Below are positions 23,496 through 41,422 of a stretch of 64,000 nt of DNA, one piece after another. The stretch spans positions 4,224,501 through 4,288,500 of the forward strand of contig NZ_CP011509.1 in NCBI RefSeq assembly GCF_001027285.1, read 5' to 3'. Within the stretch, counting starts at the first letter, position 1. Each line of letters opens with the position of its first letter. A program made the position numbers and the translations under genes. Below the pieces are notes generated by a model. It made no database searches and was not told where the DNA came from. It saw only the letters and a list, made by a program, of their open reading frames with translations. Origin of the DNA: Archangium gephyra (lineage in GTDB: Bacteria; Myxococcota; Myxococcia; Myxococcales; Myxococcaceae).

Positions 23496-26400
23496 ATGAC
23501 CCTGGAACGTCCAGACCGGCCTCGGCAGACTTCGGAGCCCACGCCCGAACGTCAAGGCGCGGCGCTCGCGCTCATCGCGACGCCTCAGCGCGCGGCGCAC
23601 CTGCACTCCCTCATTGCCACGAGCCTGCGCGAGGCGCGCACGTGTAGCGAGGAGGCCGCGGAGCAGGGAGCCACCCACCTCCTCGATTCCCTGCTCCAGC
23701 GTGGCTGGCTCGAGCGAGAGGGGCTGGACCTGGTCTCGGCGCAGGAGCTCGCGGTGGAGGAGGTGCTGGAAGAGCTCCTCCGTGAGCCCGAGCCTCCCTT
23801 CGTCCGGCGTCCCGTTCTCGCCGCCCTGCTCGATAGCGGACTCCACTCGCCCCGGACCCTGGGGCGGCTGATGGTGGGTCTCGAACGCCTGCTGAGCCGT
23901 ACCTCGGTGGGGAGCACGTTCGGGCGGGAGGTCCTGGACACCCTCCACCTCTGGTTCGAGCATCACGCGGGAGCCCTGGGCCAGGCGCTGCTCACCGTCC
24001 CAGCGGATGAGGCGTCCTATGCGCTCGGTGCCCTGGTCTCGAGACCGGTGGGACGAGCACTCGTGGCTCGCCATGGAGGGATGTTCCTCCAACCGTGGCT
24101 GGAGCGCTCGGGCTCGAGGCTCGAGGCGCGCCACCTGCTGTACCGGGGCCTCGAGAGAATGCCGGCGGACGAGCCCACCTCCCAGGCCCTCCTCACCGCG
24201 GCGATGCACTGGCTCGACCTCCACCGGCGGAACGAGAAAGCGTCATTCGTGCTCAGCGCGCTCCTGGCGCGGAGGGACCTGGGCGTGGCGGCCTCCCGGT
24301 GCCTCCAGTGGAGCCAGGAGTGGTTGGAGCTCCACACCCCGAGCGAGCATGCGTTGCATGTCTTGTCGCCGCTCTTGATGCGGCCGGAGCTTCGGGGCTC
24401 CCTGTCCGTTCTCTGGCCTTGCGTCCACCGGTGGCTCGAGGTTCATGGGCGGGACGCCGAGGCAGCTCCCATCCTCTCGTGGGTGCTCCGTCAGGCCGGG
24501 GCCACCGCTGCCTTTCCGTCATTCGTCCCGCATGTCCTGCGCTGGTTGGAGCTGCACACCCAGTCGGCCTCCGCCCCCGCGCTCCTGAAGCTCCTTCTCT
24601 CCGAGGAGTTCGAGGGACCGCACGTCCAGCCTTGCATGGAGCATGCGCTGCGGTGGCTGGAGGCCCATCCCCTGGAGCTCGAGGCCTCGTCCCTCTCGAG
24701 TGTCCTGCTCGGCCGGCTGGAGCCAGGCGAGGAGGCCACGGTGTGCATCGAATCCGCGCTCTGGTGGCTGGAGGCGCACGGCCAGAAGCCAGAAGCGGCG
24801 CGGGTGCTCCACGCCCTGCTGAAGCGCGACGACCTGGGAGAGGACGCGCGGGAGTGTATCCATCATGCACTGCACTGGTTGGAGGCGCAGGGACTGCTCC
24901 CCGATGCCTCCTCCGTGCTGTCCGTGCTGCTGTGGCGGGAGGATCTCGAGGAGTCTCAAGAGGCCTGTATCGAGCGCGCGCGGAGCTGGTTGAAGGCCCA
25001 CCCGAAAGGGGGTGGCGCGCCTTTCGTCTTCTTGCCGCTCATCATCCAGGCGAAGGTGGAAGGCAGCCAGCGCGCCAGGAGCAAGCCCGTCGCGGAGTGG
25101 CTCCGGAAGAATGGGCACCGGCCGGGCGCGGCGTGGGTCATTCAGCAGTTGCTGTCCCGGGGGCTGTTCGACTGCCTCGTCCCGAAGGACCTGGAGCAGT
25201 GGCTCAGGTGGCAGGATGCGCGGGGTCCGAAGCTCGAGGTGCGTGCCATCCTGCGGATGTTGTTGAAACGGCCCCGCCTGGGACATGAGGAGTCAGCCAT
25301 CCTGAGGCTGGTCGTGCGGTGGCTCGACACGCATGGGCACAGGGAGGAGGCCTCCGTCGTTCTCCAAGGAGTGGTCACGCGGCCGAATCTGGGGGCGTTC
25401 GCACACGCCTGCAGGGCACACGTGATGCGATGGCTGGACCTCCACGGCCAATGCCTGGAGGCACGCTCCGTTCTCCTGCCGCTCGTTCAGCGCAAGGACC
25501 TGGGTGAAGCCAGGCAGACCTGCCTGGACCATCTGGAGACGTGGCTGAGCGTCCATGGCCAGACCCTGGAGGCACTTCCCATCTTGTGCGACCTGTTGAC
25601 GCGCAAGGTTCCTCAGGAAGACAGACACCTCCACCTGCAATGGGCCGCGCGATGGTTGAAGGCGCAGGACCAGAGCCTCGAAGCGCATAAGCTCTTCTCC
25701 AGGCTCGAGGAGCTCATGGAGCGCCAGGAGGAATCCCTTCCCTTGCGCGAACACGTGCTGCGCTGGCTGGAGGTCCATGCGGGAGAATGGGAAGCCCATC
25801 ACTTCCTGCGTCTCGGGCTCACCGAGGAGGATCCGCGAGTTCCCACCACCGCCTTCATCCCGCCGGCCCTGCGCTGGCTGGAGTCGCATGGGAGCACCTG
25901 GGACGCGACCTCCGTTCTCTCACTCCTGTTGGAGCGACCCGACCTGGGGGCGGAGCGGGAGCGCTGTATCTCCCTCGCCCTGAAGTGGGTGGCCAAGTAC
26001 GGGATGAGCCGGTACGCCGGTTTCGACCTCGCGCGCTTGCTCCGCCAGGGGGCGCAAGGCGATCGTGACGCTGCCTGTCTTGGCCATGCCCTGCGCTGGT
26101 TGGATGAATATCCAATGGCCCTTGAGGCTGGCTTCGTGCTCCAAGCCGCGTTCGAGCGGCAGCGGCTCGGAGCCGAGCTCGAGGGATGGCTCGCGCGTGC
26201 CGTGCGGTTCTTGAGCACACATCCAGACGAGGACAGTGCATTGAACCTGCTCACGGCCGTGTTGAACTGGCGGGATCTGCCCAGGCCGGGCTCCCCCCTG
26301 TTCTCCTCCCTCCTCGAGAGCGCCATCCCCTGCTTGCGAGGTCATCGTCTCAACCCCAAGACGGTGCCGCTGCTCGTCGGCCTGCTGGAGGCGCCCCTGC

Positions 26401-26612
26401 CGGAACAGGAATGGGGGACGGTCGCGTCCGTCGCCATTCAGGTGCTGTCCAACACGCCGCTCCTGCCCAGCCATGGCCCGCTCCTCGCGTCCCTGTCGAA
26501 GCGGTTGAACCTCCTGGGCCGTGACTCGACGCGGGTGATGGCGTGGTTGGCGCGTGTGGGAACCTCCACCGCGGCTCACCCCGAGACGGCCTTCCTCACC
26601 GCCGGACGTTGA
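23496..26612 (+). CDS. Giant alpha-helical repeat protein (about 19 units of ~41 residues)
   Basis: A 1038-residue protein, ATG preceded by GAGGAGG. Residues 1-215 are a helical N-terminal region without recognised domains. From about residue 220 to 1000 a unit of roughly 41 residues recurs about 19 times: a (R/H/W)WLExH core, a short basic turn, EAxxVLxxLLxRxDL, then an acidic linker often with a Cys before the next WL. This is the look of a TPR/HEAT-like superhelix. There is no signal peptide, membrane segment, nucleotide-binding or enzymatic motif. Its 3' end overlaps the convergent GST gene by 37 bp. A protein-binding scaffold is inferred; the partner is unknown. Confidence 0.85.
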   Translation: MTLERPDRPRQTSEPTPERQGAALALIATPQRAAHLHSLIATSLREARTCSEEAAEQGATHLLDSLLQRGWLEREGLDLVSAQELAVEEVLEELLREPEPPFVRRPVLAALLDSGLHSPRTLGRLMVGLERLLSRTSVGSTFGREVLDTLHLWFEHHAGALGQALLTVPADEASYALGALVSRPVGRALVARHGGMFLQPWLERSGSRLEARHLLYRGLERMPADEPTSQALLTAAMHWLDLHRRNEKASFVLSALLARRDLGVAASRCLQWSQEWLELHTPSEHALHVLSPLLMRPELRGSLSVLWPCVHRWLEVHGRDAEAAPILSWVLRQAGATAAFPSFVPHVLRWLELHTQSASAPALLKLLLSEEFEGPHVQPCMEHALRWLEAHPLELEASSLSSVLLGRLEPGEEATVCIESALWWLEAHGQKPEAARVLHALLKRDDLGEDARECIHHALHWLEAQGLLPDASSVLSVLLWREDLEESQEACIERARSWLKAHPKGGGAPFVFLPLIIQAKVEGSQRARSKPVAEWLRKNGHRPGAAWVIQQLLSRGLFDCLVPKDLEQWLRWQDARGPKLEVRAILRMLLKRPRLGHEESAILRLVVRWLDTHGHREEASVVLQGVVTRPNLGAFAHACRAHVMRWLDLHGQCLEARSVLLPLVQRKDLGEARQTCLDHLETWLSVHGQTLEALPILCDLLTRKVPQEDRHLHLQWAARWLKAQDQSLEAHKLFSRLEELMERQEESLPLREHVLRWLEVHAGEWEAHHFLRLGLTEEDPRVPTTAFIPPALRWLESHGSTWDATSVLSLLLERPDLGAERERCISLALKWVAKYGMSRYAGFDLARLLRQGAQGDRDAACLGHALRWLDEYPMALEAGFVLQAAFERQRLGAELEGWLARAVRFLSTHPDEDSALNLLTAVLNWRDLPRPGSPLFSSLLESAIPCLRGHRLNPKTVPLLVGLLEAPLPEQEWGTVASVAIQVLSNTPLLPSHGPLLASLSKRLNLLGRDSTRVMAWLARVGTSTAAHPETAFLTAGR

Positions 26613-27190
26613 GTGTGGCGCTTGACGTACTCCACCAGCCGCGGATGCCCGTCGAGCAGCTTCAGCGTGTTCGCCAGGTGGAGGATGGACGCCATCACCA
26701 CATCGGCGGCGGTGAATGCCCCTGCTACGAGGAATTCACGGCCGCCGAGGCCCACGTTGATGACGTCGAGCACGGCCGTGAGGCGGCTCCTGTGCTTCGC
26801 GAGCGCTTCGTTCGAGGACGCGCTGGCCTTCTGCTCCTCGGGCAACTGCGCGTGCCTGTAGAACTCCATCACCACGGGCTCAAGGCTCACCTCGGCGAAG
26901 ACCATCCATTGGTAATAAGGGCCGCGCTCCGCGGAACCCATCCGCGGCGCCAGGTGCTTCTCCGGGAAGCGGTCGGCCAGATGGAGGCAGATGGCCAGGG
27001 ACTCGAGCAGTGTGACTTCCCCATCGGCCAGAGCGGGGACTTCGCCCAGCGGATGCACCGACAGGTACGCGGGGGTGGTGTTCTCCTGTCGAGCGAGGTC
27101 GAGCTTGACCAGCTCGTAGGGCACCCCGAGCTCCTCCAGCAGCCATCGGGCACGGGTCGATCGGGTCCTGGGGGCGAAGTAGAGCTTCAT
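26576..27190 (-). CDS. Glutathione S-transferase family protein
   Basis: A 204-residue protein of typical length. The N-terminal thioredoxin-like half begins KLYFAPRTRSTRARWLLEE with the cis-Pro region GEVPALADG and the glutathione-contact LLESLAICLHLADRF. The C-terminal helical half contains FLVAGAFTAADVVMASIL, the conserved N-capping box Asp. The likely activating residue is Ser or Thr in the TRSTRAR loop. It is divergent from a LysR regulator that probably controls it, and its end overlaps the convergent repeat protein. The substrate is unknown. Confidence 0.92.
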   Translation of the reverse strand: MKLYFAPRTRSTRARWLLEELGVPYELVKLDLARQENTTPAYLSVHPLGEVPALADGEVTLLESLAICLHLADRFPEKHLAPRMGSAERGPYYQWMVFAEVSLEPVVMEFYRHAQLPEEQKASASSNEALAKHRSRLTAVLDVINVGLGGREFLVAGAFTAADVVMASILHLANTLKLLDGHPRLVEYVKRHTQRPAVRKAVSG

Positions 27191-27246
27191 GTGTGACGCT
27201 CCTGAAGGTGGCGGGAGGCGGCAACATGCGGCAACCGGGGTGCCCC

Positions 27247-27276
27247 GACAATGCGGCTACGAGCGAACTCATTGTC
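27247..27276. promoter_or_regulatory. Inverted repeat in the GST/LysR divergent region
   Basis: GACAATG at 27247-27253 and CATTGTC at 27270-27276 form perfect 7-bp arms with 16 bp between. It lies in the 104-bp gap between the two start codons and could be the LysR operator; binding is inferred from position. Confidence 0.45.
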
Positions 27277-27294
27277 AGGCTAGGCTTGACGGTC

Positions 27295-28197
27295 ATGATC
27301 TCACCAGCCGACATGATGCTGTTCGCCGCGGTCGTTCGCGAGGAGAGCTTCACCCGGGCGGCGCGCCAGCTCGGCATCACCAAGCAGACCATCAGCGAGC
27401 GCATCAGCAATCTGGAGGAGCGGCTCGGGGTGCGGCTTCTCGAACGAACCACGCGGCGTCTGCGGGTCACCGGGGCCGGAGCGACGTACTACGAGCGCTG
27501 CTCCGCCATCGCCGCGCAGATCGACGAGGCGAACAGTGAGGTGCAACAGCGGCAGGCGGAGCCAGTCGGCCTGCTGCGGGTCTCCTCGCCGATGCTCTAT
27601 GGCCGGCGATACCTGACACCCGTGGTGTCGAAGTACCTCGCCCGCCATCCCCAGGCGCGAGTGGAGGTGGTGCTGGCGGATCGCCGTGTCCACCTCATCG
27701 AAGAGGGGCTGGATGTCGCCATTCACATCGGTCCGCTCGACGACTCGTCGCTCGTGGCGCGAAAGCTCGGCGAGAGTCCGTTCCATTTCGTCGCGAGCCC
27801 CCGCTTCCTGTCGAAGTACGGCACGCCGAGCGCCAGCGAGCTCCGCTCCGCGCGCTGCATTGGCTTCAGTGCGTTCGAGACGTGGGAGGCCGAGGGGGTG
27901 AAGTCTCGAATCGATCCGGTCCTGACCGTGAATGATCTCGAGCTGGCGTGTGAGGCGGCGATCGCCGGGGTAGGCATCGCGCGCGTCCCGGCCATCCTCT
28001 GCCGGGATGCGGTCCATGACGGCCGGCTGAAGGTCCTCTTCAGTCCCAAGCCCGCGATGCTGCGCGCCATCCACGCCGTCTACCCGAGCCGGCTGAATCT
28101 TCCGGCGAAGGTCCGGTTCTTCGTGGATGCCCTGGCAACGCTGGCCGAGCCGATGCTGCCGTTGCACAGCGCACCGCGGCGAAAGCGCGCGCTCTGA
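27295..28197 (+). CDS. LysR-family transcriptional regulator
   Basis: A 300-residue protein. The start MISPADMMLFAAVV fits the family N-terminus; the open frame upstream of it would only add intergenic sequence. The winged HTH is FTRAARQLGITKQTISERISNLEERLGVRLLERTTRR in pieces (about residues 18-55). The periplasmic-binding-protein-like effector domain (about 90-290) has HLIEEGLDVAIHIGPLDDSS, typical of the CrgA/DsdC-type branch. It is divergent from the GST gene, the classical LysR-target arrangement, so it probably regulates that gene and itself. Confidence 0.93.
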   Translation: MISPADMMLFAAVVREESFTRAARQLGITKQTISERISNLEERLGVRLLERTTRRLRVTGAGATYYERCSAIAAQIDEANSEVQQRQAEPVGLLRVSSPMLYGRRYLTPVVSKYLARHPQARVEVVLADRRVHLIEEGLDVAIHIGPLDDSSLVARKLGESPFHFVASPRFLSKYGTPSASELRSARCIGFSAFETWEAEGVKSRIDPVLTVNDLELACEAAIAGVGIARVPAILCRDAVHDGRLKVLFSPKPAMLRAIHAVYPSRLNLPAKVRFFVDALATLAEPMLPLHSAPRRKRAL

Positions 28198-28335
28198 AGA
28201 AGTCGAAGAGGCCCGGTGAATCCCGTTCCAGCTGGCGTGGGGGAGGGCGCACCACCCCGTTGAGCAGGGGAGACATCCGGGGGCGGCCTGGTGCAAGCTG
28301 TCTCTCACCCTGGACGTTGGGGGGGGAGGGAAACC

Positions 28336-29670
28336 ATGCGTTGTGGCTCGAAGGTCGTTCGGCCAGTCAGCTGGCTGCCGCTGCTTCTCACCGCCGTCAT
28401 CGGATGCGCTCCCGGTGGAAGTCGCCCGCCGGAGGCGCCGTCGGACACCCCCTCCGCCATGGATGCGGGCACTCCTGGCGGTGACGCGGGGACGAACGCC
28501 TCGCAGTACCTGAACGTGTCCCTCGAGGGGATGGCTCCTGGCTCCACCGTCTCGGCGATGCGCCTGCGCCCGGGAGTCCCCGCGGAAGAATCCCTGCTCT
28601 CCCTACTGGCGGAGGAGACGAACCTGACGCTGCCGTACCAACGGGAGGAGAGCCTCTCGGTCACGGTGAACGCACCGGATGGGACGGTGGCGCGACTGCT
28701 GTCTGGAGGCGGCGAGCCCCATGGCCCCTCGTCCTCCACGCGGGTCCGGCTCGTGCCGGCCGAGTATGCGACCATCCAGGCGGCCATCGATGCCGCGAAA
28801 CCCGGAGAGGTGGTCCGGGTGCTTCCGGGGACCTACTTCGAACATGTGAAGCTCAAGCGGGGCGTGCATCTCCAGGGCAGCGGAGCGTCGGTCACCCTCC
28901 TCGACGGACAGCAAGGAGCGTTGCCCCTCGTCGACCTGTCCAACGCGCCCGGCTCCGTGGTGTCTGGCTTCACCTTCCAGGGAGTCACCGAGCGGAACGG
29001 CAGCGCCTTCTGCTCCTCCGTCAACGCGGACGATTGCTTCTGCCTCCGGACTTCCGCTCTCTACGCGGATGGGCATGACTGGGTGTATCCGCCCCTGGGC
29101 GCCTATCACGTCATGGATCAGAGTACCTGGACCCTGCCCTCGGTCTCTCCTCCGGCCCTCGTCACCCAGAACATCTTCAGGGACAACTACATTGGCGTGG
29201 GGCTCTACTTCCATCCCCTGGTGCACGTGCGCAACAACCTCTTCCTGGGGAACGAGGGCGGCGTGGTGGCCAAGTGCTTCCAGGACCGGACGCTGATCGC
29301 CAACAACGTGTTCTGGGAGAACCGCCAGGCCGCCATCACCAGTCAGGCGGGCTACCTCGACATCCTCAACAACATCATCGCCCGCTCGCCCGTGGGCATC
29401 TCGTGGGATTACGTGCAGACGGGCCAGGTCCGCTGCAATCTCTTCTTCGACAACGGGGCGGCCGGTACGCGCGTGACCATCGGGACGGATGGAAACATCA
29501 TCGCCGATCCCCGCTTCGTGGCTCCGGAGCGGAGTGACTTCCACGTGGACCGGCTCTCTCCCGCCGTGGACAGCGGATGCTTCCAGGGCCAGGCCGTCGA
29601 CCCGGAGGATCGGTCCCCCCAGGATCGGGGGGCCTACGGCGGCCCCTGGGGTCATTGGACGGGGGAGTGA
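28336..29670 (+). CDS. Right-handed beta-helix lipoprotein
   Basis: A 444-residue protein, ATG after GGGGGGAGGG. The N-terminal signal ends in a lipobox (AVIGC), then a low-complexity Pro/Gly/Asp linker. From about residue 150 the pectate-lyase-like solenoid signature YATIQAAIDAAKPGEVVRVLPGTY appears, followed by parallel-beta-helix turns (NIFRDNYIGVG, NNLFLGNEGG, NNVFWENRQAAI, NNIIARSPVGI) and a typical C-terminal FHVDRLSPAVDSG. Catalytic residues cannot be assigned, so polysaccharide lyase or adhesin roles remain open. Envelope-anchored and exported by prediction. Confidence 0.85.
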   Translation: MRCGSKVVRPVSWLPLLLTAVIGCAPGGSRPPEAPSDTPSAMDAGTPGGDAGTNASQYLNVSLEGMAPGSTVSAMRLRPGVPAEESLLSLLAEETNLTLPYQREESLSVTVNAPDGTVARLLSGGGEPHGPSSSTRVRLVPAEYATIQAAIDAAKPGEVVRVLPGTYFEHVKLKRGVHLQGSGASVTLLDGQQGALPLVDLSNAPGSVVSGFTFQGVTERNGSAFCSSVNADDCFCLRTSALYADGHDWVYPPLGAYHVMDQSTWTLPSVSPPALVTQNIFRDNYIGVGLYFHPLVHVRNNLFLGNEGGVVAKCFQDRTLIANNVFWENRQAAITSQAGYLDILNNIIARSPVGISWDYVQTGQVRCNLFFDNGAAGTRVTIGTDGNIIADPRFVAPERSDFHVDRLSPAVDSGCFQGQAVDPEDRSPQDRGAYGGPWGHWTGE

Positions 29671-29691
29671 GACGGAAGCGGCGGGGAGGGT

Positions 29692-30519
29692 TCAGCGCGC
29701 GCGCGTCCCCACCACCGCCGAGCCGATGATCATGACCGCGGCGAGCACGACGCCGCTGCTCAGGCCCTGGCCCGTGACCAGCAGCAGCAGGCTGGTCGAG
29801 GCGAGCGGGGTGAGGTAGCTCAGGATGCCGATGTGCCGTGCGTCGCCCAGCTTGAGCGCCTTGTCCCAGAGGAAGAAGGCCGCGCCGAGCGGCCCCAGGC
29901 CCATCACCGCCAGCAGCAGCCAGTCGCGCACGGACAGGTCGACCGACGGCTCCAGGGCCCAGTGACACAGCAGGGCCAGCGCGCCGGAGACCAGCCCGAA
30001 CAAGCCGATGGCCGCCGTCGGGAAGTGGGCGACCCGCCGGGTCAGCAGCGAGTACGTGGCCCAGATGAAAGCGGAGCCGAGTGCCGGCAGGTAGCCCCAG
30101 TGCCAGGTGGCCTGCGCCGTGCCACTGCTGCCGCGCAGGATGGCCAGTCCGGCGCCCGCGAACCCCATCAGCGCTGCGCCAATGTGCACCGGACGCAACC
30201 GCAGTCCCGGTAGCACCACGGGGGCCAGCACCACGATCAGCAGCGGCCACAGGTAGTTGACCAGGTTCGCTTCCACCGGCGGAGCGAGCCGCAAGGCGAT
30301 GAACAGCAGGAAGTGATAGCCGAACAGGCCGTACACCCCGAGCGCCAGCGTCGAAGCCGGGACCTTCCATTGCCGCGCGAGAGGCCAGGCGGGAAGGCTG
30401 CCGAGCACCAGGGCGATACCGGTGAGCAGGAACGGGGGCACATGCCGCAAGGCCAGGCCGAGAGAGGCCAGGCTGGCCCACAGGGCGATGGCCCCCAGCG
30501 CATGGAAGTTCGCGTTCAT
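29692..30519 (-). CDS. EamA/DMT-family transporter, YddG-like aromatic amino acid exporter
   Basis: A 275-residue protein with ten predicted transmembrane helices in two EamA halves. The segment EANLVNYLWPLLIVVLAP closely matches the equivalent VNYLWP segment of E. coli YddG, and LTPLASTSLLLL matches its second half. Export of aromatic amino acids or related metabolites is therefore likely, though specificity is not proven by sequence. It is the last intact gene before the mobile region; a truncated DoxX-like fragment lies directly upstream of its start. Confidence 0.85.
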   Translation of the reverse strand: MNANFHALGAIALWASLASLGLALRHVPPFLLTGIALVLGSLPAWPLARQWKVPASTLALGVYGLFGYHFLLFIALRLAPPVEANLVNYLWPLLIVVLAPVVLPGLRLRPVHIGAALMGFAGAGLAILRGSSGTAQATWHWGYLPALGSAFIWATYSLLTRRVAHFPTAAIGLFGLVSGALALLCHWALEPSVDLSVRDWLLLAVMGLGPLGAAFFLWDKALKLGDARHIGILSYLTPLASTSLLLLVTGQGLSSGVVLAAVMIIGSAVVGTRAR

Positions 30520-30529
30520 CCGCGCGAGC

Positions 30530-30661
30530 TTACGCGGAGGTGCTGCCCGGGAAGACCGCGACGAAGAACGCGGCCACCACCCACCCGACGTGCGTGCTCA
30601 GGTGGCGTGCGAAGAGGAGCGCCGCGCCGAGCACGAGCTCGACCATGCCCGAAGCGACGGG
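30530..30661 (-). pseudogene. DoxX-like membrane protein fragment
   Basis: About 40 codons read SGMVELVLGAALLFAR then WVVAAFFVAVFPG, the central part of DoxX-type proteins (normally about 120-140 residues, continuing past the PAN/PGN motif). The 5' part is missing and similarity stops within a few bases of the 111-bp repeat at 30665; the 3' part stops after FPG. The open frame extends into the repeat but that portion is not DoxX. The fragment marks a deletion or insertion junction. Confidence 0.6.
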
Positions 30662-30664
30662 CTC

Positions 30665-30775
30665 GGAATCGCGAGTGAAATCGGGCACTTCGCATCCACG
30701 GGGCAGTTCCCACCAGTCCCGCCTGTCGCCCGGAGTCCCCTCCAGTTTTGGAGACATTCTGGAGACAGAACCAAG
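30665..30775 (+). repeat. 111-bp imperfect direct repeat, left copy
   Basis: Aligns over its whole length, with no net indel, to 33584-33694, from GGAATCGCGAGTGA to CCAAG. It contains the paired TGGAGAC motif at 30749-30766. Confidence 0.85.
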
Positions 30776-30940
30776 CGAAGGCGCCGCGGCTTCGCTCTGG
30801 GGCGCTTTGCTGCGTCATGCGGATTTCCTGCATCATTTTCTCATCCGCTGGCTCCTGAGTTTTACGGGAGACGGGATCGGCCCTATGGATGTGGACCCAG
30901 CACGAGCCCAATTCCCGGGTTCTCTCGGGAAGGTCCCCCC

Positions 30941-33298
30941 ATGACGCGAATGACAAAGCATGTGTGGCTGTACCTGATGACCACCCTCCTGGCCCTCGTG
31001 GCCGGTTGTGGGGCTCCCTCCCTGCAGGAGGAGGACACCACGGGCTCGGCCCAGCTGTTTGGCACCACGGCGCAAGCCATCACCTCCGCTGACGTCACCC
31101 TGGTGCGCGTCACGGTGTCCGCCGCCGACATGCCGGCGCGCACCGCCGAGCTCGTCAAGACGAACAACCAGTGGAGCGGGCTCATCGGCAAGCTGCCGGC
31201 GGGCAGCGGCCGCACCTTCTCCGCCGAGGCCTTCAACAGCAGTGGCACCAGGCTGTACGCCGGTTCGGCCACGGGCGTCACCATCCTCGCCAAGCAGACC
31301 ACCGCCGTGTCCATCATCCTGCAGGAAGTCAGCCCGGCGGCCCCCTTCACCAATGCCGCGCCCGTCATCACCTCGCTGTCCGCCGCGCCGGGCACCGTTG
31401 AGCCCGGCGGCTCGGTGACGCTCACCGCCACCGCCTCCGATGCCAACCCGGCCGACACGCTCACCTACGCGTGGAGCGCGCCCTCGGGCACCTTCGCCCA
31501 GCCCTCCAACCTCTCCACTGCCTGGACGGCTCCCTCGTCCGCCGCCACCGTCCCCCTCACGTTGACGGTGACGGATTCCAAGGGCCTGCAGGGCAAGGTG
31601 ACCTTCAACGTCAACGTCACCGTTGGCAAGGGGGACGCCGCCGTCAACGCCTCCCTCAATACCTGGCCGCAGGTGAGCAATCTCTCCGCCAGCGCCACCG
31701 CCCTGGAGGTGAATGAGTCCACCACCGTCTCCGCCACCGCTTCCGACAACGATGGTGACACCCTGGCCTACGGCTGGGCGGCCTCTTGTGCTGGCACGTG
31801 GAGCAACGCCACCTCCGCCACCGCGCACTTCACCGCCACGGCGCTGCCCGGCAGCAGCACGTGCAACAACTGCAACCTCACTGTCACCGTCACCGACTTC
31901 CGCAATGGTCAGGCCATTGGCGGCCAGACCACGGGTACCCTCTCCATTTGCGTGGGTCCCAAGAAGACGGCCCTCTTCCCGCCCGACATCACCGAAACCT
32001 TCCAGTCCGCCGCCTCCACCTCCGCCAATGGCCTCGTGTCCTTCCGGGTGAAGGCGGTGGATCCCCAGAGCAGTGCCATGAGTTTCTCCTGGGCCGCTAC
32101 CACGGGTACTATTGGCACGCCCACCATCACCGCTGACTCCAGCCAGGTGGTGTGGACGGCCCCCGCTTGCGTCCCGTCAGGCGTCACTCCCAGCGTGGCC
32201 CTCACGGTTACCAATGCCCTGGGCCTCTCCGCCTCTTACGCTTTCTCCGTCTCGGTAAACCAGACGTGTGCCGTCTCCACAGTGCTCAAACTCGCTTCGG
32301 GCGGCACCTACTCGCTGGCGCTCAAGCAGGACGGCTCCCTCTGGGCCTGGGGCGCCAACAACCAGGGACAATTGGGCGATGGCTCCACCACCCCACGCAC
32401 CACCCCCGTGCAGGTGCTCACGGGTGTCTCCTCCGTAGCCGCGGGCGATAGCCACACGCTGGCGCTCAAGCAGGACGGCTCCCTCTGGGCCTGGGGCTCC
32501 AACTACAAGGGACAATTGGGCGACGGCGCCACCTCCCCACGCACCGCGCCCGTACAGGTGCTCACGGGTGTCTCCTCCGTAGCCGCGGGCAATTTCCACA
32601 CGCTGGCGCTCAAGCAGGACGGCTCTCTCTGGGCCTGGGGCGGGAACCCCAACGGCGAACTGGGCGACGGCTCCACCACCCAACGCACCACCCCCGTGCA
32701 GGTACTCACGGGCGTCTCCTCTGTAGCCGCGGGCGGTTACCACACGCTGGCGCTCAAGCAGGACGGCTCCCTGTGGGCCTGGGGTGCCAACGGCGACGGC
32801 CAACTGGGCGACGGCTCCACCACCCCACGCACCTCGCCCGTCCAGGTGCCCGGCCTCTCCAACGTCATCGCCATCGCCGCGGGCGGTTCCCACACGCTGG
32901 CGCTCAAGCAGGACGGCTCCCTCTGGGTCTGGGGCGCCAACTTCCGGGCACAACTGGGCGATGGCTCCACCACCCCACGCACCCTCCCCGTGCAGCTGCT
33001 CACGGGCGTCTCCTCCGTGGCCGCTGGAACCTACCACACGCTGGCGCTCAAGCAGGACGGCTCCCTGTGGGCCTGGGGTGCCAACAGCGACGGCCAACTG
33101 GGCGATGGCTCCACCACCCAACGCAGCACCCCCGTGCAGGTGCTCACGGGTGTCTCCTCCGTAGCCGCTCGCGGCAATCACACGCTGGTGCTCAAGCAGG
33201 ATGGCTCCCTCTGGGCCTGTGGCTATAACTTCCAGGGACAATTGGGCGACGGCTCCAACACCACCCGTCCCACTCCAGTCCGGGTGCAGGAGTTCTAA
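30941..33298 (+). CDS. RCC1-repeat lipoprotein (seven-bladed propeller)
   Basis: A 785-residue protein, ATG after GGGAAGG. A signal peptide ends in the lipobox VAGC. Residues about 30-120 form a beta-rich domain, then two or three Ig-like/PKD-like modules (about 125-440: PVITSLSAAPGTVEPGGS, VSNLSASATALEVNES, DITETFQSAAS). The C-terminal 340 residues are seven RCC1 repeats, each with HTLALKQDGSLWAWG and QLGDGST, enough to close one seven-bladed propeller. It is probably exported and surface-anchored; binding partners are unknown. It sits between two mobile-element end repeats, so it is probably cargo. The blades are nearly identical at DNA level. Confidence 0.88.
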   Translation: MTRMTKHVWLYLMTTLLALVAGCGAPSLQEEDTTGSAQLFGTTAQAITSADVTLVRVTVSAADMPARTAELVKTNNQWSGLIGKLPAGSGRTFSAEAFNSSGTRLYAGSATGVTILAKQTTAVSIILQEVSPAAPFTNAAPVITSLSAAPGTVEPGGSVTLTATASDANPADTLTYAWSAPSGTFAQPSNLSTAWTAPSSAATVPLTLTVTDSKGLQGKVTFNVNVTVGKGDAAVNASLNTWPQVSNLSASATALEVNESTTVSATASDNDGDTLAYGWAASCAGTWSNATSATAHFTATALPGSSTCNNCNLTVTVTDFRNGQAIGGQTTGTLSICVGPKKTALFPPDITETFQSAASTSANGLVSFRVKAVDPQSSAMSFSWAATTGTIGTPTITADSSQVVWTAPACVPSGVTPSVALTVTNALGLSASYAFSVSVNQTCAVSTVLKLASGGTYSLALKQDGSLWAWGANNQGQLGDGSTTPRTTPVQVLTGVSSVAAGDSHTLALKQDGSLWAWGSNYKGQLGDGATSPRTAPVQVLTGVSSVAAGNFHTLALKQDGSLWAWGGNPNGELGDGSTTQRTTPVQVLTGVSSVAAGGYHTLALKQDGSLWAWGANGDGQLGDGSTTPRTSPVQVPGLSNVIAIAAGGSHTLALKQDGSLWVWGANFRAQLGDGSTTPRTLPVQLLTGVSSVAAGTYHTLALKQDGSLWAWGANSDGQLGDGSTTQRSTPVQVLTGVSSVAARGNHTLVLKQDGSLWACGYNFQGQLGDGSNTTRPTPVRVQEF
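32321..33290 (+). repeat. Seven tandem near-identical RCC1 DNA repeats, period 144 bp
   Basis: The start of CTCAAGCAGGA recurs at 32321, 32465, 32609, 32753, 32903, 33047 and 33191. The period is 144 bp except 150 bp between copies four and five. High DNA identity, not only protein identity, points to recent duplication or gene conversion. Confidence 0.9.
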
Positions 33299-33386
33299 GC
33301 CTCCCGAACCAGGTTCGCTCAGGGGGGACAACCGCTGAGGCCGAGAAATCGAGCCCTGGCGCGAGGTCCCCCTGAACGGAATCAGT

Positions 33387-33542
33387 CTGCTGGACACAGC
33401 GGGCCCCCAGCTTTCTGGAGACCTGCTGGAGACGGGCTCCGCGACGCCGGGAAAGGCAGGTGGGGGCCAAAAGGCGAAGGGCCCGGAACCTTGCGATTCC
33501 GGGCCCTTCTATTGGCGAGGAGTACGGGACTTGAACCCGTGG
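33387..33542 (+). repeat. attL-side copy: 156-bp exact repeat with int tail, terminator and tRNA-Asp 3' end
   Basis: Every base matches 41220-41375 (offset 7833). The last 30 bases (33513-33542) equal the tRNA-Asp 3' end and are the likely crossover core. The preceding part equals the int 3' coding region and tRNA terminator hairpin (33476-33509). It includes the paired TGGAGAC motif at 33416-33433. Confidence 0.93.
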
Positions 33543-33583
33543 ATGAGGGGTGTCCTAAACCCGCGACGGCACACGCCTTTCGA

Positions 33584-33694
33584 GGAATCGCGAGTGACTC
33601 CAGACACTTCGAGTCCACGAGCCAGTCCCCACCAGTCCCACCTGTCACCCGGAGTCCCCTCCAGTCCTGGAGACATTTTGGAGACGGCGCCAAG
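33584..33694 (+). repeat. 111-bp imperfect direct repeat, right copy
   Basis: Pairs with 30665-30775 at about 85% identity by eye and equal length. It lies 41 bp inside the left end of the intact element. TGGAGAC pairs occur at 33668-33685. Confidence 0.85.
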
Positions 33695-33809
33695 GGCGCA
33701 CAGTTGATCTATACAACTTGGGCGAGGTTTCTTGCGATGGGCGTGGATGCTGCTGGTAACGAATTTACTGCTTGGCTAATGGGCCATGGCAGATTGCCCT
33801 CACCGCTTA

Positions 33810-34708
33810 GTGACTGTTCCGGTAGGAATGAATGCGTGACCTCCTGGGTTAGCTGAACAGGAGGGCAAAGCCATGGGTGTGGTACGGGAAGATGACGGCT
33901 GGAGAGTGCCGGACGAGCTGTGGACGAAGTTGGAGCTCCTGCTCCCGCCGCGACCCGAGCATCCCCTGGGCTGCCACAACCCGCGCACGCCGGACCGACG
34001 GGCGATGGACGGCATCTTGTTGGTGCTGCGCACGGGTATGCAGTGGCGAGCATTGAAGGCCACAGGCGCGTGCGGGCCGTCCTCGGCCTACAGACGCTTC
34101 CGGGAGTGGTTGGAGGCTGGAGTGTTTTGGGAGTTCTGGCGCCAGGGACTGCTGATGTACGAGGCGCTGGGAGGCATCGACTGGGAGTGGTTGGCTGTAG
34201 ACGGGGCCCAGGGCAAAGCGCCGCTGGGAGGGGAAAAAAACCGGCCCCAACCCCACCGACAGAGGGAAAAAAGGGAGCAAGAGAAGCGTGCTGTGCGATG
34301 GGCGGGGCGTGCCTATCGGGCTCGTGGTGGGTGGCGCCAACACGAACGACCACAAACTGCTGCGCCAGACGCTCGAATCCATCCCCGTGCCGCGGCCTGG
34401 TTCCACGGGCCAACAACCGCAGGGCCTGTGTCTGGATGCGGGCTACGACTATGACGAAGTGCGGCGGGTCGCTGAGGACTTTGGCTTGACCCTGCATGTA
34501 CGTCCACGTGACTACCGCACGCGCGAGGTGGAGCGCAGCGCCCACAAGCAAGCGCGACGGTGGGTAGTGGAGCGAGCGCATTCCTGGCACAACCGCTTCC
34601 GGCGCATCTTGGTGCGGTGGGAGAAACGCGAAGACACCTGGCTGGCCATGCTCCACCTGGCCTGCGGTGTCATCGCGTGGTTTCACCGCGTCCTACCGGA
34701 ATAGGCTC
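33810..34708 (+). mobile_element. IS5-family (IS427-like) insertion sequence, 899 bp
   Basis: Terminal inverted repeats of 18 bp (33810-33827 and 34691-34708) match at 15 of 18 positions, the inner 11 perfectly (TTCCGGTAGGA). The element is flanked by a 3-bp target duplication TTA (33807-33809 and 34709-34711). It carries one transposase in two overlapping frames. Length, ends and duplication fit the IS427 group of the IS5 family. It has inserted at the stop codon of the neighbouring membrane-protein gene. Confidence 0.9.
33873..34704 (+). CDS. IS5-family transposase in two overlapping frames
   Basis: OrfA (33873-34454) starts at ATG after AGGAGGG and encodes the DUF4096-like N-terminal region (WTKLELLLPP, DGILLVLRTGMQWRALK) and the first catalytic Asp in WLAVDGAQGKAP. 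The reading then needs to move to the second frame (open 34288-34704 as an independent ORF) with CDGRGVPIGLVVGGANTNDHK (second Asp) and RRWVVERAHSWHNRFRR (catalytic Glu). The natural switch is the run of seven A at 34234-34240, after which the second frame reads TGPNPTDRGKKGSK as in relatives. Programmed or transcriptional slippage is typical of this IS group. Probably functional. Confidence 0.88.
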
Positions 34709-35458
34709 TTAGGGCCTCCTAACTGGACGTCGTTCTCGGGCCGTGCTCGCGATGTGACCACCTGCTGCACCAGGGTCTATAGGAACTGGAGCCTCGGGAG
34801 AGGGCATGAGATTGATAGCTTGGCCATTAGGCGGTGCAGCCACTTGCTCAGCGGGAGGTGGGATAGCCGTCGTCTGGCCGATAGGTGCTGCCACAATAGG
34901 GTTGGTCAGAGAGCGAACCGACTTGGCTCTTCGTGCCTTCTTGGGCTTCGGATTCTCGTAGGCAAGGGATCGAGAGCGCTCGGGTAAGTGGTGGAGGAAG
35001 TGTTCGTCGTCGAGGGCAGCACAGATACGCTTGTACTTCTCTTGCGACCATCGTCCGAGGAGAACGTAGAGCTTCGCCTGAAGGACGAGGAGCCAATAGT
35101 TGTCCGGGTCGCTCGACGGCGTTACTGATTCAGCAGTCGGCGAAGGAGATGAACTCCGAGTTGCCACGTGTGCCGTGATGAGAGAGCCCAGCAGGCCGAC
35201 CGATACTATCAAGGCCCGTGCAAGGTTCTGGCCAGTAACACCTTCCGGAAACACGTCCGGGAAGGATTGCACTAAGAGTGCAGCGAGGAGGCTCGAAAAG
35301 GCACCGCCGAGCAAACCAGGGCCGTACTTACGAGTTCGTCTCACAGCTGCAATTGCAGCATCCACGTCGCCGACCAAGACAGGGTCTACGACGGACTTTT
35401 GACGATCCCGCGCTTTCTTTGGCTCTTGTGGCGGTAGAGCGGCTGCCGACGTGCTCAT
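34709..35458 (-). CDS. Membrane protein of unknown function (second gene of element cargo pair)
   Basis: A 249-residue protein: a short basic N-terminus, a first hydrophobic segment (about 47-70, LLGGAFSSLLAALLVQ), a second (about 80-103, ARALIVSVGLLGSLITAHVA), then a soluble C-terminal half with a Trp/Tyr-rich helix (NYWLLVLQAKLYVLLGRW) and a Pro/Ala-rich tail. No family recognised. The ATG overlaps the stop of the upstream gene, so both are one operon. The stop codon TAA is itself the target duplication of the IS, so the coding region remains intact. Base composition is lower in G+C than host genes. Confidence 0.75.
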   Translation of the reverse strand: MSTSAAALPPQEPKKARDRQKSVVDPVLVGDVDAAIAAVRRTRKYGPGLLGGAFSSLLAALLVQSFPDVFPEGVTGQNLARALIVSVGLLGSLITAHVATRSSSPSPTAESVTPSSDPDNYWLLVLQAKLYVLLGRWSQEKYKRICAALDDEHFLHHLPERSRSLAYENPKPKKARRAKSVRSLTNPIVAAPIGQTTAIPPPAEQVAAPPNGQAINLMPSPEAPVPIDPGAAGGHIASTARERRPVRRP

Positions 35459-36237
35459 CGCGCCCTCCGAGAACTGTCGAAGAGATCGCCCGTCAGTCTT
35501 TCCTTGTCTCCTTCCAGTCTCCTCTTTGCTTCTTCCATGTAGCGCACCGCCTCCTCCTCGCGGAGCAGTGCAGCCTCATAGCGTGTCGACACTTCCATAA
35601 CGCGAGTCGCCTCGTGCAGGGCACGCTCGTTCGCATCCTTAGACTCGATCAGTAATGCCCGGGAGAGCCGCGAAGTGCTTCTCCAAAGAAGGAGTGCCGA
35701 GTAGCTCTCAAGCAGGCAGTAGGCTCCCACCGGGATAGTAAAGAGTGAGATGACGAAAAGGACGTTTGGCCCGTTCACACTGAGGAGGACGAAGGTAAAG
35801 GTGGCCAATACAATTCCAACCCGGAGGATCGTAGACTGCAGATGCTCGAAGGCACGGCGGGACGCAGCTACGAGGATGCGGTACGAATCAATGAGTTCAA
35901 AATGCCGCAGGTCCGCCTCATCGCGGGCTTGGACAGAAGACTCGTACAAGTCGAGAAAATGCTCAGACTCCTTACGCCTGAGATAGATATCGCGATTCAG
36001 CTCATCCAGAAACGCAGAGTCGAAAAAGGACGGAGATGAGGGGACGCTTGCAGGCTCAAGACGAGTTTGAATGCCTTCCCTGAGACCGTCCGAGAGACCG
36101 TCCGACGCTCGCTGGGACTCAAGACGAGTTTGAATGCCTTCCCTGAGACCGTCCGAGAGACCGTCCGACGCTCGCTGGGACGATAGCGTCGGTTCGACGG
36201 GCTGATCGGATGGCAAAAACTTGTCCACGGGCGACAT
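35455..36237 (-). CDS. Coiled-coil membrane protein of unknown function (first gene of element cargo pair)
   Basis: A 260-residue protein; ATG at 36237 follows AGGAG with 7-bp spacing, better than the open frame to 36312. Residues about 20-60 are a perfect 21-residue duplication (SQRASDGLSDGLREGIQTRLE in each copy). Then comes a charged helix (LNRDIYLRRKESEHFL), two adjacent transmembrane segments (about 140-195, VGIVLATFTFVLLSVNG and VISLFTIPVGAYCLL) and a long C-terminal coiled coil of Glu/Arg heptads. It resembles membrane-anchored sensors or effectors in overall shape only; no family recognised. Overlaps the next gene by ATGA. Confidence 0.75.
   Translation of the reverse strand: MSPVDKFLPSDQPVEPTLSSQRASDGLSDGLREGIQTRLESQRASDGLSDGLREGIQTRLEPASVPSSPSFFDSAFLDELNRDIYLRRKESEHFLDLYESSVQARDEADLRHFELIDSYRILVAASRRAFEHLQSTILRVGIVLATFTFVLLSVNGPNVLFVISLFTIPVGAYCLLESYSALLLWRSTSRLSRALLIESKDANERALHEATRVMEVSTRYEAALLREEEAVRYMEEAKRRLEGDKERLTGDLFDSSRRAR
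36055..36180 (-). repeat. Perfect 63-bp tandem duplication inside a coding region
   Basis: 36055-36117 and 36118-36180 are identical. The unit is 21 codons, so the frame is kept. Copy number may vary between strains. Confidence 0.9.
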
Positions 36238-36416
36238 GGAAGGACTCCTGATGACCTTGGGTGGGCACTCAAACGATGGAGAATCTACTCTGAATCCAGG
36301 GGGGGGGTTCACCTGATCTCGATAGCCCTAGCAATTGGCGAGGAAGGCGAAGAGGGTCGGGAAGGGCCAGCAGAACGAACCCGGGCCAGTCCACCAGGGC
36401 CGTTGCAACCGGGCTT

Positions 36417-37289
36417 CTACTTCACGAGGCGCAGCTTCACCCTCAACGCCTGCGTCTCGGACGTGTTCTCCGTCTTCGTGTTGGCCATCTCGGCGCGGAG
36501 CTGGTGGAAGATGGCGAGCTGCCGCTCCATGGTGGTCTCCAGGGTCCGACGGTGACGCTCCAGCTTCTTCAAGTCCGCGTCTTCGAGCAGCAACACCTCG
36601 GCGGCGAGTCGTTCACGCACAGGCCCAAGGGCGGCTTCTTCTTCGGCCAGCTTCAGGGCGAGGGCGCTCTTCACCACCTTGGCCATGTTGCCTAGGTGCT
36701 GGTAGCTGGCCGCGTCGAGCTGTTCCGCCTCCCCGTTCTCCTGGGCCGCATCGAGCGCGAAGGCCAGGGGCTCCACCACGGCCATCGGCAGGCCCGGCAC
36801 CTCTCGCAGCTCCCTCACCACCTGCTCCACTCCGGAGAGAAAGGCGCTCGTCCTGTCGAAGTCCTTCGGCGGCGAGGGAATGGCTTCCACTGTCATGGCC
36901 AGGGCCCCCACCATTTCCAGCGCCCGGAGGGTGAGCGCGAAGGTCTTGCCCTCGTCCGTCGTCTCCAGCTCCTCCTCCAACCGGGCCCGCATCCTGCCGT
37001 TCTCCACCCGGCTCAACCGCTCCAGCTTCCACGACGTGTCCGCGAGCTGCGCGACGCTGGCGGCCTCGGGCATGGTGCTGGGGGACAAGCTGGAGAACCA
37101 CTCGCTCACGAACGCCTCGTAGGCGTCTGGGTCTTCACCGGGGAGCAGAAGGTGCGAGGCGGAGAAGCCGTAGCGGACGGCGTTGAGCGAGGACGTCTTC
37201 TTACCCTCCTCGGTGCGAGGACCTTTCGAGCGGGCTCCGTTGAGCGCGCTGGCGGCGGCTTGTGCGGCAGTACGGACGGCGTTGTTCAT
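36417..37289 (-). CDS. Element-associated protein of unknown function
   Basis: A 290-residue protein from ATG at 37289 (the longer open frame upstream is an antisense artefact of the next gene). The N-terminus has the pattern NGARSKGPRTEEGKK followed by SLNAVRYGFSASHLLLPGEDPDAYEAF. This block is familiar from uncharacterised genes carried by integrated elements, but has no known function. The rest is mostly helical and charged, with a coiled-coil-like C-terminus (VLLLEDADLKKLERHRRTLE). The ribosome site is weak. It lies 65 bp downstream of the HNH-like gene on the same strand and is probably co-transcribed. Confidence 0.72.
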   Translation of the reverse strand: MNNAVRTAAQAAASALNGARSKGPRTEEGKKTSSLNAVRYGFSASHLLLPGEDPDAYEAFVSEWFSSLSPSTMPEAASVAQLADTSWKLERLSRVENGRMRARLEEELETTDEGKTFALTLRALEMVGALAMTVEAIPSPPKDFDRTSAFLSGVEQVVRELREVPGLPMAVVEPLAFALDAAQENGEAEQLDAASYQHLGNMAKVVKSALALKLAEEEAALGPVRERLAAEVLLLEDADLKKLERHRRTLETTMERQLAIFHQLRAEMANTKTENTSETQALRVKLRLVK

Positions 37290-37354
37290 GGGAGGATTCT
37301 CTGGCTGCGTCTGCTCGTGTGGGAAGGGCGAGGTGTGCGACTGCTTGTCGCGCT

Positions 37355-38230
37355 TCACGGCTTGCGCTCCTGCCAGGTCATGGGGGCGAAGACGGGCAGA
37401 CGTCGGTGCTCGCGCCAACGCTGGAGGGCCACGTTGACGCTGGGCCGCTGGTAGAAGGGCGCGAGGAGTTCCACCGGCTCGCCCACGTCCGCCGCCACGC
37501 GCTCCAGGTCGAAGCCGTTGCGGATGAGCAGCAGGACGAAGGCCGCCTCGCCCTCGGTGCAGCAGTAGCGGGGCATCTTCAACCCCAGCTTGCGCGTCTT
37601 GGAGTCCCGCCACTTCGACTTCGCCGTGGTGCGGGGGATGGACTCACCGCTGTCGAGGCCCTTCATCTCCCCCCACAGCGCGTCCACCCGCTGGGCCAGC
37701 TTCCACTCCACCCCGAGGACACGCTCACGCAAGGTGGGCACGCGCGGGGGCGTCCTGGACACGGGAGCGGGGAGGCCCACCAGCTCGGGATGGCTGACGA
37801 CGCGGGCGGGCTGGGGTGGGCGGTAGCGAAGGCCGCCGAGGTCGTGGCGCTCCCGAGGGCTGTAGCGTCGGGCCTTGGAGTTGTGCGCCCGAGCATGGCT
37901 GGTGGGATTCCCCCGGCCCAGGCGCTTGATGCGGGCGTCCAGCTTGTCGCACCGCTGGTGGTGGATGACGTCCCCCTCCTTCCGCTCGGGACGCAGACCA
38001 CGCACGGCGTAGAAGTCCCAGGCATAGTGATGCAGCCACATCATCCGCCTCGGGGCGCGAGGGTGGGCGCAAGACAAGGAGCCACACGAGGGGCAAACCC
38101 GTGGGATGTACGCCATCCACGGGTAGCCGTCCTCGCCCATGATGATGAAGAGTCCCTGGGCCTGGAGACTCGCCAGCACCTCGTTGTTCACCTTCACGCC
38201 GTTCACATCGGTCCAGTTCTGCCTGCTCAT
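37355..38230 (-). CDS. HNH-like / zinc-finger protein of the mobile element
   Basis: A 291-residue protein; ATG at 38230 preceded by GAGGAAAAGGAC. Residues 45-62 include CPSCGSLSCAH, a possible zinc site. Next is HHYAWDFYAVRGLRP, then GDVIHHQRCDKLDARIKRL (about 87-105), which matches the core of homing-type HNH nucleases (H-H near the D-x-x-N/D-R-x-x-N/R-L block). The Asn residues usual in that block are Asp/Lys here, so nuclease activity is uncertain. The C-terminus has a helix resembling a DNA-recognition segment (GEAAFVLLLIRNGFDLERVA). Role in element transfer or superinfection exclusion is possible but unproven. Confidence 0.65.
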   Translation of the reverse strand: MSRQNWTDVNGVKVNNEVLASLQAQGLFIIMGEDGYPWMAYIPRVCPSCGSLSCAHPRAPRRMMWLHHYAWDFYAVRGLRPERKEGDVIHHQRCDKLDARIKRLGRGNPTSHARAHNSKARRYSPRERHDLGGLRYRPPQPARVVSHPELVGLPAPVSRTPPRVPTLRERVLGVEWKLAQRVDALWGEMKGLDSGESIPRTTAKSKWRDSKTRKLGLKMPRYCCTEGEAAFVLLLIRNGFDLERVAADVGEPVELLAPFYQRPSVNVALQRWREHRRLPVFAPMTWQERKP

Positions 38231-38899
38231 GCCGTCCTTTTCCTCGGGGGGAGTGCGCCTGCTGGGGGGGCCATGGACGGGGACCTGGGCGTGGTGGATG
38301 ACGGGAGGTGAAGAACGCGAAGCGTTCACACCGCCGACCTATAGAGACACTCCGCCCAGGTCCCCGATCTATACAGATGGGAACCTCAACGAGACCCTCG
38401 GGGGCGTGCCGGAAGCTGCCTCGCTGCTGCATCGGGCCAGGATCGGGCTACTGCTTGCCGTCCGAGGGGAACCGCCGTGCGCCCCGGCCTATGGGAAGCG
38501 ACCCTGACGCACGATCACCAACAACGTGATGGGCGAACCATGGGCCTGCTCGGAAACGAGCACCATTGGGAGGCGAGCCGCGTTTCTCGGGCTGCAATCC
38601 TCCCCCCCTGGTGATGGGGCTCCAGCATCGGTGGAGAAGAGGGGGGAGACGTTGTGCAGTCTCGCGCCCTGCACGCTCCCCCCCACCCATTCGATGAGCT
38701 GGAGGGCTACGAGGAGGGGGGAGACAACGGGTCCGTTCCGATGCGGAGTGCTCCCCCTGCCCTTCATGCCCAGCCGTGCGAATGCTGGGGGCGGGGCTAG
38801 GGTTCGCGACCCGAAAGGCCGTCCTTCCTCGGCGGCTTGCCCCCCTTTCAACCCGAGGACCGCCGCGCCCGTCAGTGGCGCATGAGGAGGCGGATGCAC
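38231..38899. other. 669-bp divergent intergenic region inside the element
   Basis: No gene supported; overlapping open frames have no ribosome sites or recognisable products. Signals seen: a perfect 6-bp dyad GAACGC-GAA-GCGTTC (38313-38327), and two related 13-mers 30 bp apart (CGACCTATAGAGA at 38335, CGATCTATACAGA at 38365). The second contains GATCTATACA, also found at 33706 near the other element end. Promoters for the two divergent genes presumably lie here. Confidence 0.45.
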
Positions 38900-39694
38900 A
38901 TGGGTACTCCCCGTCCGGGCATGGGCCCCGTGCCCAAGAAGCCGAAGCACCGATTCAAGGCCCCGAAGGACGCCATGGAATTGCTTCTCCGGCGGCGCAC
39001 CGAAAAGCAGATCGTCAAACTCGCCCGGAATTCCGAGTTGGCCATCTGCTTGGCGAAGACGTTCGCCTGGGTGAATCGCCACGAGGAGGCGCTGCTCTCG
39101 GAGGACTACTTGCGAGCGTTTCCCGAGGTGCCGAGGGGAGTGTGTGGCACAGATACCAGCCAGCTCACGCCCCTGCTGGCTCCCCAGGCGCGTCTCCTCG
39201 CTCAAGGGCTGGAGGTCATCACGGCCTACTCCCACTTCCTTCAAGCGGGCGAGCAGCTCCGGGCCACCGTCAAACGCTTCTATGAGCAGCACCCGTGGGC
39301 TCGGGAGCACACGAGGCTCTGGCAGAGCGAGCAGCGGCTCTTCTGCGCATTCTCCCAGCTCGCGGTGGAGGCCGAGGGCATGGGGCCCAAGCTCTCGCCG
39401 CAGGAGATGGAGGCGCTGGCGCTCGTGGTGGGCATCCGATTCCCGCGCGAGGAGTTCGAGCAGGACCCCAAGTCCAACGAGAAGCGCAAGGCCGCGTGGA
39501 AGAGCATGATGCGGGAGATAGAAGACAGTGGCGTGCTGCCGCTTCTTCGGAGCATCGCCGCCGAGCACCGTCCACTCGGCCAGGAGGCCGGGCCGCCTGC
39601 GACTCCACCCGTGCAGCAATCGGTCGCCTCACCGCCGAGCACTCCACCGGAGGCCGCCGAGCATTCCGAGGGGGAAGGGGGGGATAAGAAGTAG
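38900..39694 (+). CDS. Unknown protein of the mobile element
   Basis: A 264-residue protein. Of three in-frame ATGs, the one at 38900 (MGTPRPGM) has AGGAGG 9 bp upstream and is preferred; 38882 and 38894 overlap that site. The N-terminal 20 residues are Lys/Pro-rich (VPKKPKHRFKAPKD), the middle is helical with several Trp/Arg, and the tail is a Pro/Glu-rich disordered segment. No motif, membrane segment or family recognised. It is the first gene of a plus-strand run leading to xis and int, 122 bp before xis. Confidence 0.65.
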   Translation: MGTPRPGMGPVPKKPKHRFKAPKDAMELLLRRRTEKQIVKLARNSELAICLAKTFAWVNRHEEALLSEDYLRAFPEVPRGVCGTDTSQLTPLLAPQARLLAQGLEVITAYSHFLQAGEQLRATVKRFYEQHPWAREHTRLWQSEQRLFCAFSQLAVEAEGMGPKLSPQEMEALALVVGIRFPREEFEQDPKSNEKRKAAWKSMMREIEDSGVLPLLRSIAAEHRPLGQEAGPPATPPVQQSVASPPSTPPEAAEHSEGEGGDKK

Positions 39695-39816
39695 GTCGGA
39701 GCGCATGGAGTCCTCCCGCTCCCCCTCACCCGGCGCCACGTCCACCATGTGCCTCGTCTTCACGAGGTTCAGATGCGGGACGTGATTCAGTTGAGCAGTG
39801 ATGGCGGGAGGCCACC

Positions 39817-40154
39817 GTGTCCAGCGTAGAGGCCGGGTTGCGCGAGTTCATCCGCGCCCTGGTGCGAGAGGAGCTGGCGGCGCTCCACGGGGATGCAGCT
39901 CACCGCGAGCTGGTGCAGGCGGGTCCTCCGAGCAGCACCACTCCAGAGGCCCAGCCCCCGTTGGACAAGGCCGTCTACACCGCCGAGGAGGTGGCCCGCC
40001 TTCTCGGGTGCAGCCCCAAGGCCGTGTACGCGAAGGTCTCGCGGGGCCAGCTTCCAGGCGCGTTCCGCGTGGGCCGCTCGCTGCGGTTTCGCGGGAGCGA
40101 GCTGTTACCGTTCATTCTCGAAGGGCGTGTGCCGTCGCCGAGGAGGTCTTGGCG

Positions 40155-40158
<4 letters not shown>
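39817..40158 (+). CDS. xis: Excisionase-type HTH protein
   Basis: A 113-residue protein with GTG start after GGGAGG. An N-terminal helix (residues 1-25) and Pro-rich linker precede a MerR/excisionase HTH (about 52-100): YTAEEVARLLGCSPKAVYAKV and LPGAFRVGRSLRFRGSEL, the helix-turn-helix plus wing of the HTH_17 class. It overlaps the integrase start as ATGA. It probably binds the element ends and directs the integrase towards excision, and may also autoregulate. Confidence 0.85.

Positions 40159-41422
<1,264 letters not shown>

Follow-up and report, generated by a model that had tools for sequence, protein, structure and literature searches.

A decayed, att-armed segment in tandem with an intact tRNA-Asp element of Archangium gephyra and the conserved left att arm of its Myxococcaceae element family

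Sequence comparison supports well that the segment 30665-33542 of the window (the whole stretch of 64,000 nucleotides of Archangium gephyra DNA analysed here) is an integrase-less, att-armed remnant located in tandem with an intact tRNA-Asp element. Its status as a decayed tandem element is well supported because both arm motifs survive in it, and in this respect the earlier note, which had proposed a second degenerate element in tandem, was right. The suggestion that this element is older holds only by half, since its left arm has diverged by 16% while its integrase tail differs from that of the intact neighbour at one position of 162. The 111-bp repeat that marks both elements very probably belongs to the conserved left att arm (~165 bp) of small tRNA-targeting tyrosine-integrase elements in the Myxococcaceae, of which it forms the core-distal part.

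The intact element is bounded by two copies of the tRNA-Asp 3' end (33519-33542 and 41352-41375) and carries an excisionase-like gene and an integrase gene near its right boundary; an integrase, a displaced tRNA fragment and an intact tRNA at the ends are the marks of a tRNA-targeted integrative element. Its left core, on the + strand, represents a chimeric att site common to the remnant and the intact element, and is followed by the left att arm (33543-33694, + strand), which includes the right 111-bp copy (33584-33694) and an arm pair at 33668-33686. This copy lies just inside the left end of the intact element, as had been claimed: it starts at base 42, the left tRNA-Asp core ending at 33542. 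The excisionase-like HTH_17 protein (39817-40158, + strand; Pfam HTH_17 2.5e-12; TIGR01764 excise) overlaps the start of the tyrosine integrase (40155-41387, + strand; Pfam Phage_integrase, PHROG 1), the frame of which reads through the hairpin and the core. The right copy of a 162-bp repeat (41214-41375, + strand) comprises the integrase tail, an arm pair (41249-41267), the hairpin and the core (41352-41375), and the target gene, an intact tRNA-Asp (gtc), is located at 41346-41422 on the - strand.

No transfer genes (conjugation, relaxase) were recognised among the scanned proteins of the intact element, most of which match nothing, and the PHROGs scan, which covered seven element proteins, detected no phage structural protein. 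All 967 records matched in the phage collection share less than 60% identity (25-28% among the matches listed). A non-exhaustive integrase scan of genome contigs with short peptide patterns gave at least 21 loci, the close ones being in Archangium and Pyxidicoccus. Two overlapping frames (DUF4096 and DDE domains, 33873-34704) inserted close behind the left arm of the intact element encode an IS4/5-type transposase, and an open frame of this element contains a perfect 63-bp tandem duplication (36055-36180). A match to the int-alpA RNA family (RF02996) at 38790-38858 reaches 33.2 bits against a gathering score of 35.8; at the gathering threshold this RNA had no match in six related elements.

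The decayed segment begins with the left att-arm remnant (30665-30775, + strand), which lacks the tRNA core and arm bases 1-41 but keeps the arm pair TGGAGAC-N4-TGGAGAC at 30749-30767. No tRNA core was found to the left of it, the best match in 28000-30700 being 16 of 27 bases; because of this, the left end of the remnant is placed from the arm alone and should be taken as presumptive. It is followed by a putative lipoprotein gene with RCC1 repeats and PKD (30941-33298, + strand), already noticed from the sequence and now confirmed by Pfam; the gene is probably cargo. Three paralogues in the genome are 75-81% identical in amino acids, and the homology with them starts at 30799, 30828 or 30906 and continues to the gene end. 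At the right end of the segment are the integrase-tail remnant, the right arm pair (33416-33434) and a hairpin which by eye resembles a tRNA terminator (33381-33518, + strand). This tail, too, had been reported correctly: it belongs to the 162-bp repeat 33381-33542/41214-41375, the copies of which are 99% identical, and the tail at 33378-33542 is the sole integrase homology in the segment.

The truncated DoxX-like gene suggested for the left flank is real. The fragment at 30537-30657 (121 bp, - strand) matches six other places at 89-94% nucleotide identity, and the homology ends at 30657, so that the 5' part of the gene is missing at the arm junction; the gap between fragment and arm copy is 7 bp and not 4 bp, as the earlier note had it. 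Truncation is also seen in the 42-residue piece, the 29 other matches of which lie in stop-to-stop frames of 142-429 codons. The name DoxX, given in the earlier note and kept here, is tentative, and Pfam gave no match on 43 amino acids. The fragment is best interpreted as flanking DNA, truncated by the deletion that also took the left core, rather than as part of the element. An origin of the DoxX-like fragment and the RCC1 gene as a duplicate of the 7.09-7.10 Mb region was considered, but gene order and orientation differ; in this region an RCC1 paralogue and a DoxX-like gene are ~14 kb apart, and the blast match is limited to the 121-bp DoxX piece.

To place the 111-bp unit, we compared its occurrences throughout the family. 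The search with core plus arm as the query revealed the arm in 39 of 96 family genomes, representing 7 of 26 genera. It listed 81 matches (3 in the window's genome and 78 in relatives); with the 21 weakest copies excluded, 57 relative stretches were examined, from which L094 was dropped (its unit is identical to that of L082), and the 56 remaining together with the third copy of the window's genome (L018) gave 57 units. In 46 of these the copy stands directly after an antisense 3' end of tRNA-Asp, -Glu or -Pro, and no tRNA core could be recognised in 11. Sixteen elements have a second copy of the core downstream, at an intact tRNA (tRNA-Asp 3, tRNA-Glu 7, tRNA-Pro 6). Recurrence of the unit at the ends of tRNA-targeted integrase elements, the check proposed for it, was thus observed, for tRNA-Asp and for tRNA-Glu and tRNA-Pro as well.

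The left arm starts directly at the core and usually ends with TGGAGACATTYTGGAGAC, the direct pair TGGAGAC-N4-TGGAGAC; of the 57 left arms, 35 contain the GGAGAC pair exactly and 22 do not. Many right ends have a similar pair, then the hairpin, then the core. Genome-wide, the pattern TGGAGACNNNNTGGAGACR has seven matches, with none for the backward control. Six of them, all on the same strand, correspond to the two ends, left and right arm, of the intact element, of the segment 30665-33542 and of the element of the third copy; around the seventh, at 309086, there is no tRNA inside the 3-kb locus. The pair may represent an arm-type binding site of the integrase. The left tail of L062 and the tail of the genus mate G006 both lack exactly 11 bp at the same place, that is, one unit of the TGGAGAC pair, as would result from slippage between its two halves.

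Arms cluster by tRNA target and not by genus. In 25 of 44 cases an arm and its nearest neighbour had the same target, a number that 10 of 2000 shuffles reached (mean of the shuffles 15.4); they came from the same genus in 7 of 44 (mean of the shuffles 8.8). The test used 44 of the 47 cored units, the window's included, with L076, L113 and L118 excluded. Such clustering would be expected of elements moving between genera.

Within the decayed segment, the two ends imply different ages, because the integrase tails of segment and intact element are identical at 161 of 162 positions while the left arms differ at 18 of 111 (84% identity); the nearest aligned arm, from a genus mate (L073), is 89% identical. 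A uniformly old element fails to account for this combination of a near-identical tail and an arm diverged by 16%, and the segment is probably composite or had its tail homogenised by gene conversion. We give about an even chance to the composite version, which refines the main reading: an older element would have supplied the left arm and the RCC1 gene, and the tail would stem from a tandem copy of the intact element that arose recently and had its body deleted. The contrast between tails and arms speaks in its favour, the more so as both tails have lost the stop codon present before the core in six other intact integrases, and the integrase tails of genus mates differ by 8-11% where they are well alignable (L107 and L113-L118 were excluded from the tail comparison). 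Gene conversion between the tails gives the same picture, however, and at another tRNA-Asp locus, in the genome of G005, two tails are only 93% alike.

For the main reading, a decayed tandem element, the following order of events can be proposed. Elements of the family would insert at a tRNA gene's 3' end and repair the gene with their own copy of the tRNA end and hairpin; insertion would leave the tRNA core and left arm on one side, and the integrase tail, right arm, hairpin, core and tRNA on the other. At tRNA-Asp, an earlier insertion would have been stripped of the integrase, of the left core and of the adjoining 41 bp of left arm, and an intact element would later have integrated into the right att site of the remnant, resulting in the observed tandem. 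The loss of the core, of 41 bp of the arm and of the 5' part of the DoxX-like gene would be explained most simply by one deletion. The anatomy, the recurrence of the unit, its linkage to tRNAs and the presence of the paired motif at both ends are direct observations, whereas this order and the role of the RCC1 gene as cargo are inferred.

Integration into a resident att site followed by decay is already a known process: in the accretion model outlined in PMC5704250, an element integrates and decays to a CIME, and a newcomer enters its attR. The segment resembles a CIME as outlined there, as it has lost its integration genes, retains sequences of the attR side (arm pair, hairpin and tRNA-Asp core) and forms a tandem with a related integrative element next to it at the end of a tRNA gene (3' side), with a chimeric att site between them. 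We call it CIME-like rather than a CIME because retention of attL, a defining feature in this outline, fails: the arm remnant has no core to its left. Descent from an ICE or IME would be conjectural: among the scanned proteins of the intact relative, genes for conjugation or a relaxase were not recognised. With the tRNA-targeted genomic islands of the Islander type (PMC4383910), the family has in common the integrase gene, the displaced tRNA 3' fragment and the restored tRNA gene opposite. It differs from such islands by a strongly conserved left arm of ~165 bp common to three tRNA targets.

Integrase-tail homology occurs directly outside 14 of the 46 cored units (L062, L064, L076, L078, L080, L081, L082, L087, L088, L092, L093, L097, L099 and L103), so tandems are common; in L076 and L088 this outer homology extends only just past the hairpin. 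In 20 other delimited elements, among which L073, L076 and L111 are not counted owing to doubtful core repeats, HMM search detected a full integrase in 6, a partial one in 2 and none in 12, and 3 of these 12 (L082, L098, L103) retain degraded tail DNA. The element of the third copy (about 16852-19256 of L018) is also without integrase; it consists of a tRNA-Glu-type core, the arm, a gene without Pfam match, a gene for a small cysteine-rich protein, the right arm pair and a degraded core, and no tRNA gene was found near it in the 20-kb stretch. An orphan att scar (G000:C1:10764704; L119, L029), located between genes of secreted-looking proteins, joins a truncated integrase tail to the core of a tRNA-Asp 3' end; the 3.1-kb locus yielded no tRNA gene.

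It could be imagined that integrase-less cassettes of the Myxococcaceae, down to one gene between two att arms, are moved between tRNA genes in trans by related integrases and spread genes of secreted or surface proteins, but we consider this improbable. Two of the three armed elements in the window's genome lack an integrase, one carrying the RCC1 lipoprotein and one the small cysteine-rich protein, and the segment as it stands has no left core to recombine with. The right arm pair is kept in L018, L064, L065, L072, L075, L091, G002 and the segment 30665-33542, and was not found in L066, L077, L081, L082, L098, L099, L100, L103, G003, G004, G005 and G006. Random decay can explain this mixed retention in integrase-less elements, and because it is mixed we claim no selection for the arms.

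A coding role of the 111-bp unit, as an alternative integrase C-terminus in the circular form, is very unlikely. This idea takes its model from phage Mx8, the attP of which is located within int (PMC6070905), and the joined form of the window's element does read 54 codons beyond the core, through the 111-bp unit. In six other intact elements, however, the integrase stops 19-29 codons ahead of the core, so the idea is contradicted by six of seven elements and was rejected. A broader likeness to the temperate myxophages Mx8 and Mx9 (PMC6070905) is their site-specific integration, carried out in a myxobacterial host by an integrase of the phage; an int spanning the crossover core, the Mx8-type feature, occurs only in the window's copy, the other six of the seven integrases stopping before the core.

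Chance presence of an ordinary dispersed intergenic repeat at both places, which was to be feared for the unit from the beginning, is extremely improbable. The copies 30665-30775 and 33584-33694 match without gaps at 93 of 111 positions (83.8%, close to the 85% of the earlier note), and the best other sites in the window reach 50 of 111 on the + strand and 48 on the - strand, the + strand background being 29.9 matches on average (SD 4.5). Compared with the whole genome, the window pair gives E = 1.1e-27, and among 12,489,432 bases (12.49 Mb) there are three strong copies, the third at 4182893-4183001, ~72 kb left of the window pair; the next match has E = 0.029. The 11 of 57 copies without an adjacent tRNA core would fit a dispersed repeat, but each of the three strong copies has an arm pair at an element end and 46 of 57 copies are at tRNA cores, so this explanation was rejected for low copy number and tRNA linkage. 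A known structured RNA was likewise rejected, because in the scanned region 28000-42000 neither copy is overlapped by an Rfam match with E <= 0.1.

At the orthologous tRNA-Asp locus of five genus mates, the right flank is 92-96% identical, and integrase-tail or terminator homology is present in all, as remnants that differ in length: G002, G003 and G006 retain pieces of the integrase, and G004 and G005 have nothing beyond tail or terminator homology. The G005 remnant (75 bp) could be the host's own terminator. No empty site for dating was found among these five. The stretch left of tRNA-Asp is variable, because the left flanks of the genus mates are unmatched or only partly collinear: the collinearity of G004, the nearest, with the window ends at 22346, the matches of G005 are confined to 12633-14632, and the 20-kb stretches of G002, G003 and G006 gave no left-flank matches. 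The EamA gene (29692-30519) had no match at E <= 1e-60 in the five genus mates. About 22346-41346 of the window thus appears as a variable hot spot left of tRNA-Asp.

The segment belongs, in decayed form, to an element family for which no paper was found among titles and abstract openings of the literature on tRNA-integrating elements of the Myxococcaceae, and it follows known principles: it is an ordinary decayed element and a new example of the known layering of foreign genes at a tRNA gene. The left-arm sequence and the TGGAGAC-N4-TGGAGAC pair serve as a tag by which elements of this family and their fossils can be recognised; within a single genome, the pair marked both ends of three elements, with one stray match. 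By this tag, the history of integration at myxobacterial tRNA hot spots could be read even where no intact integrase is left.
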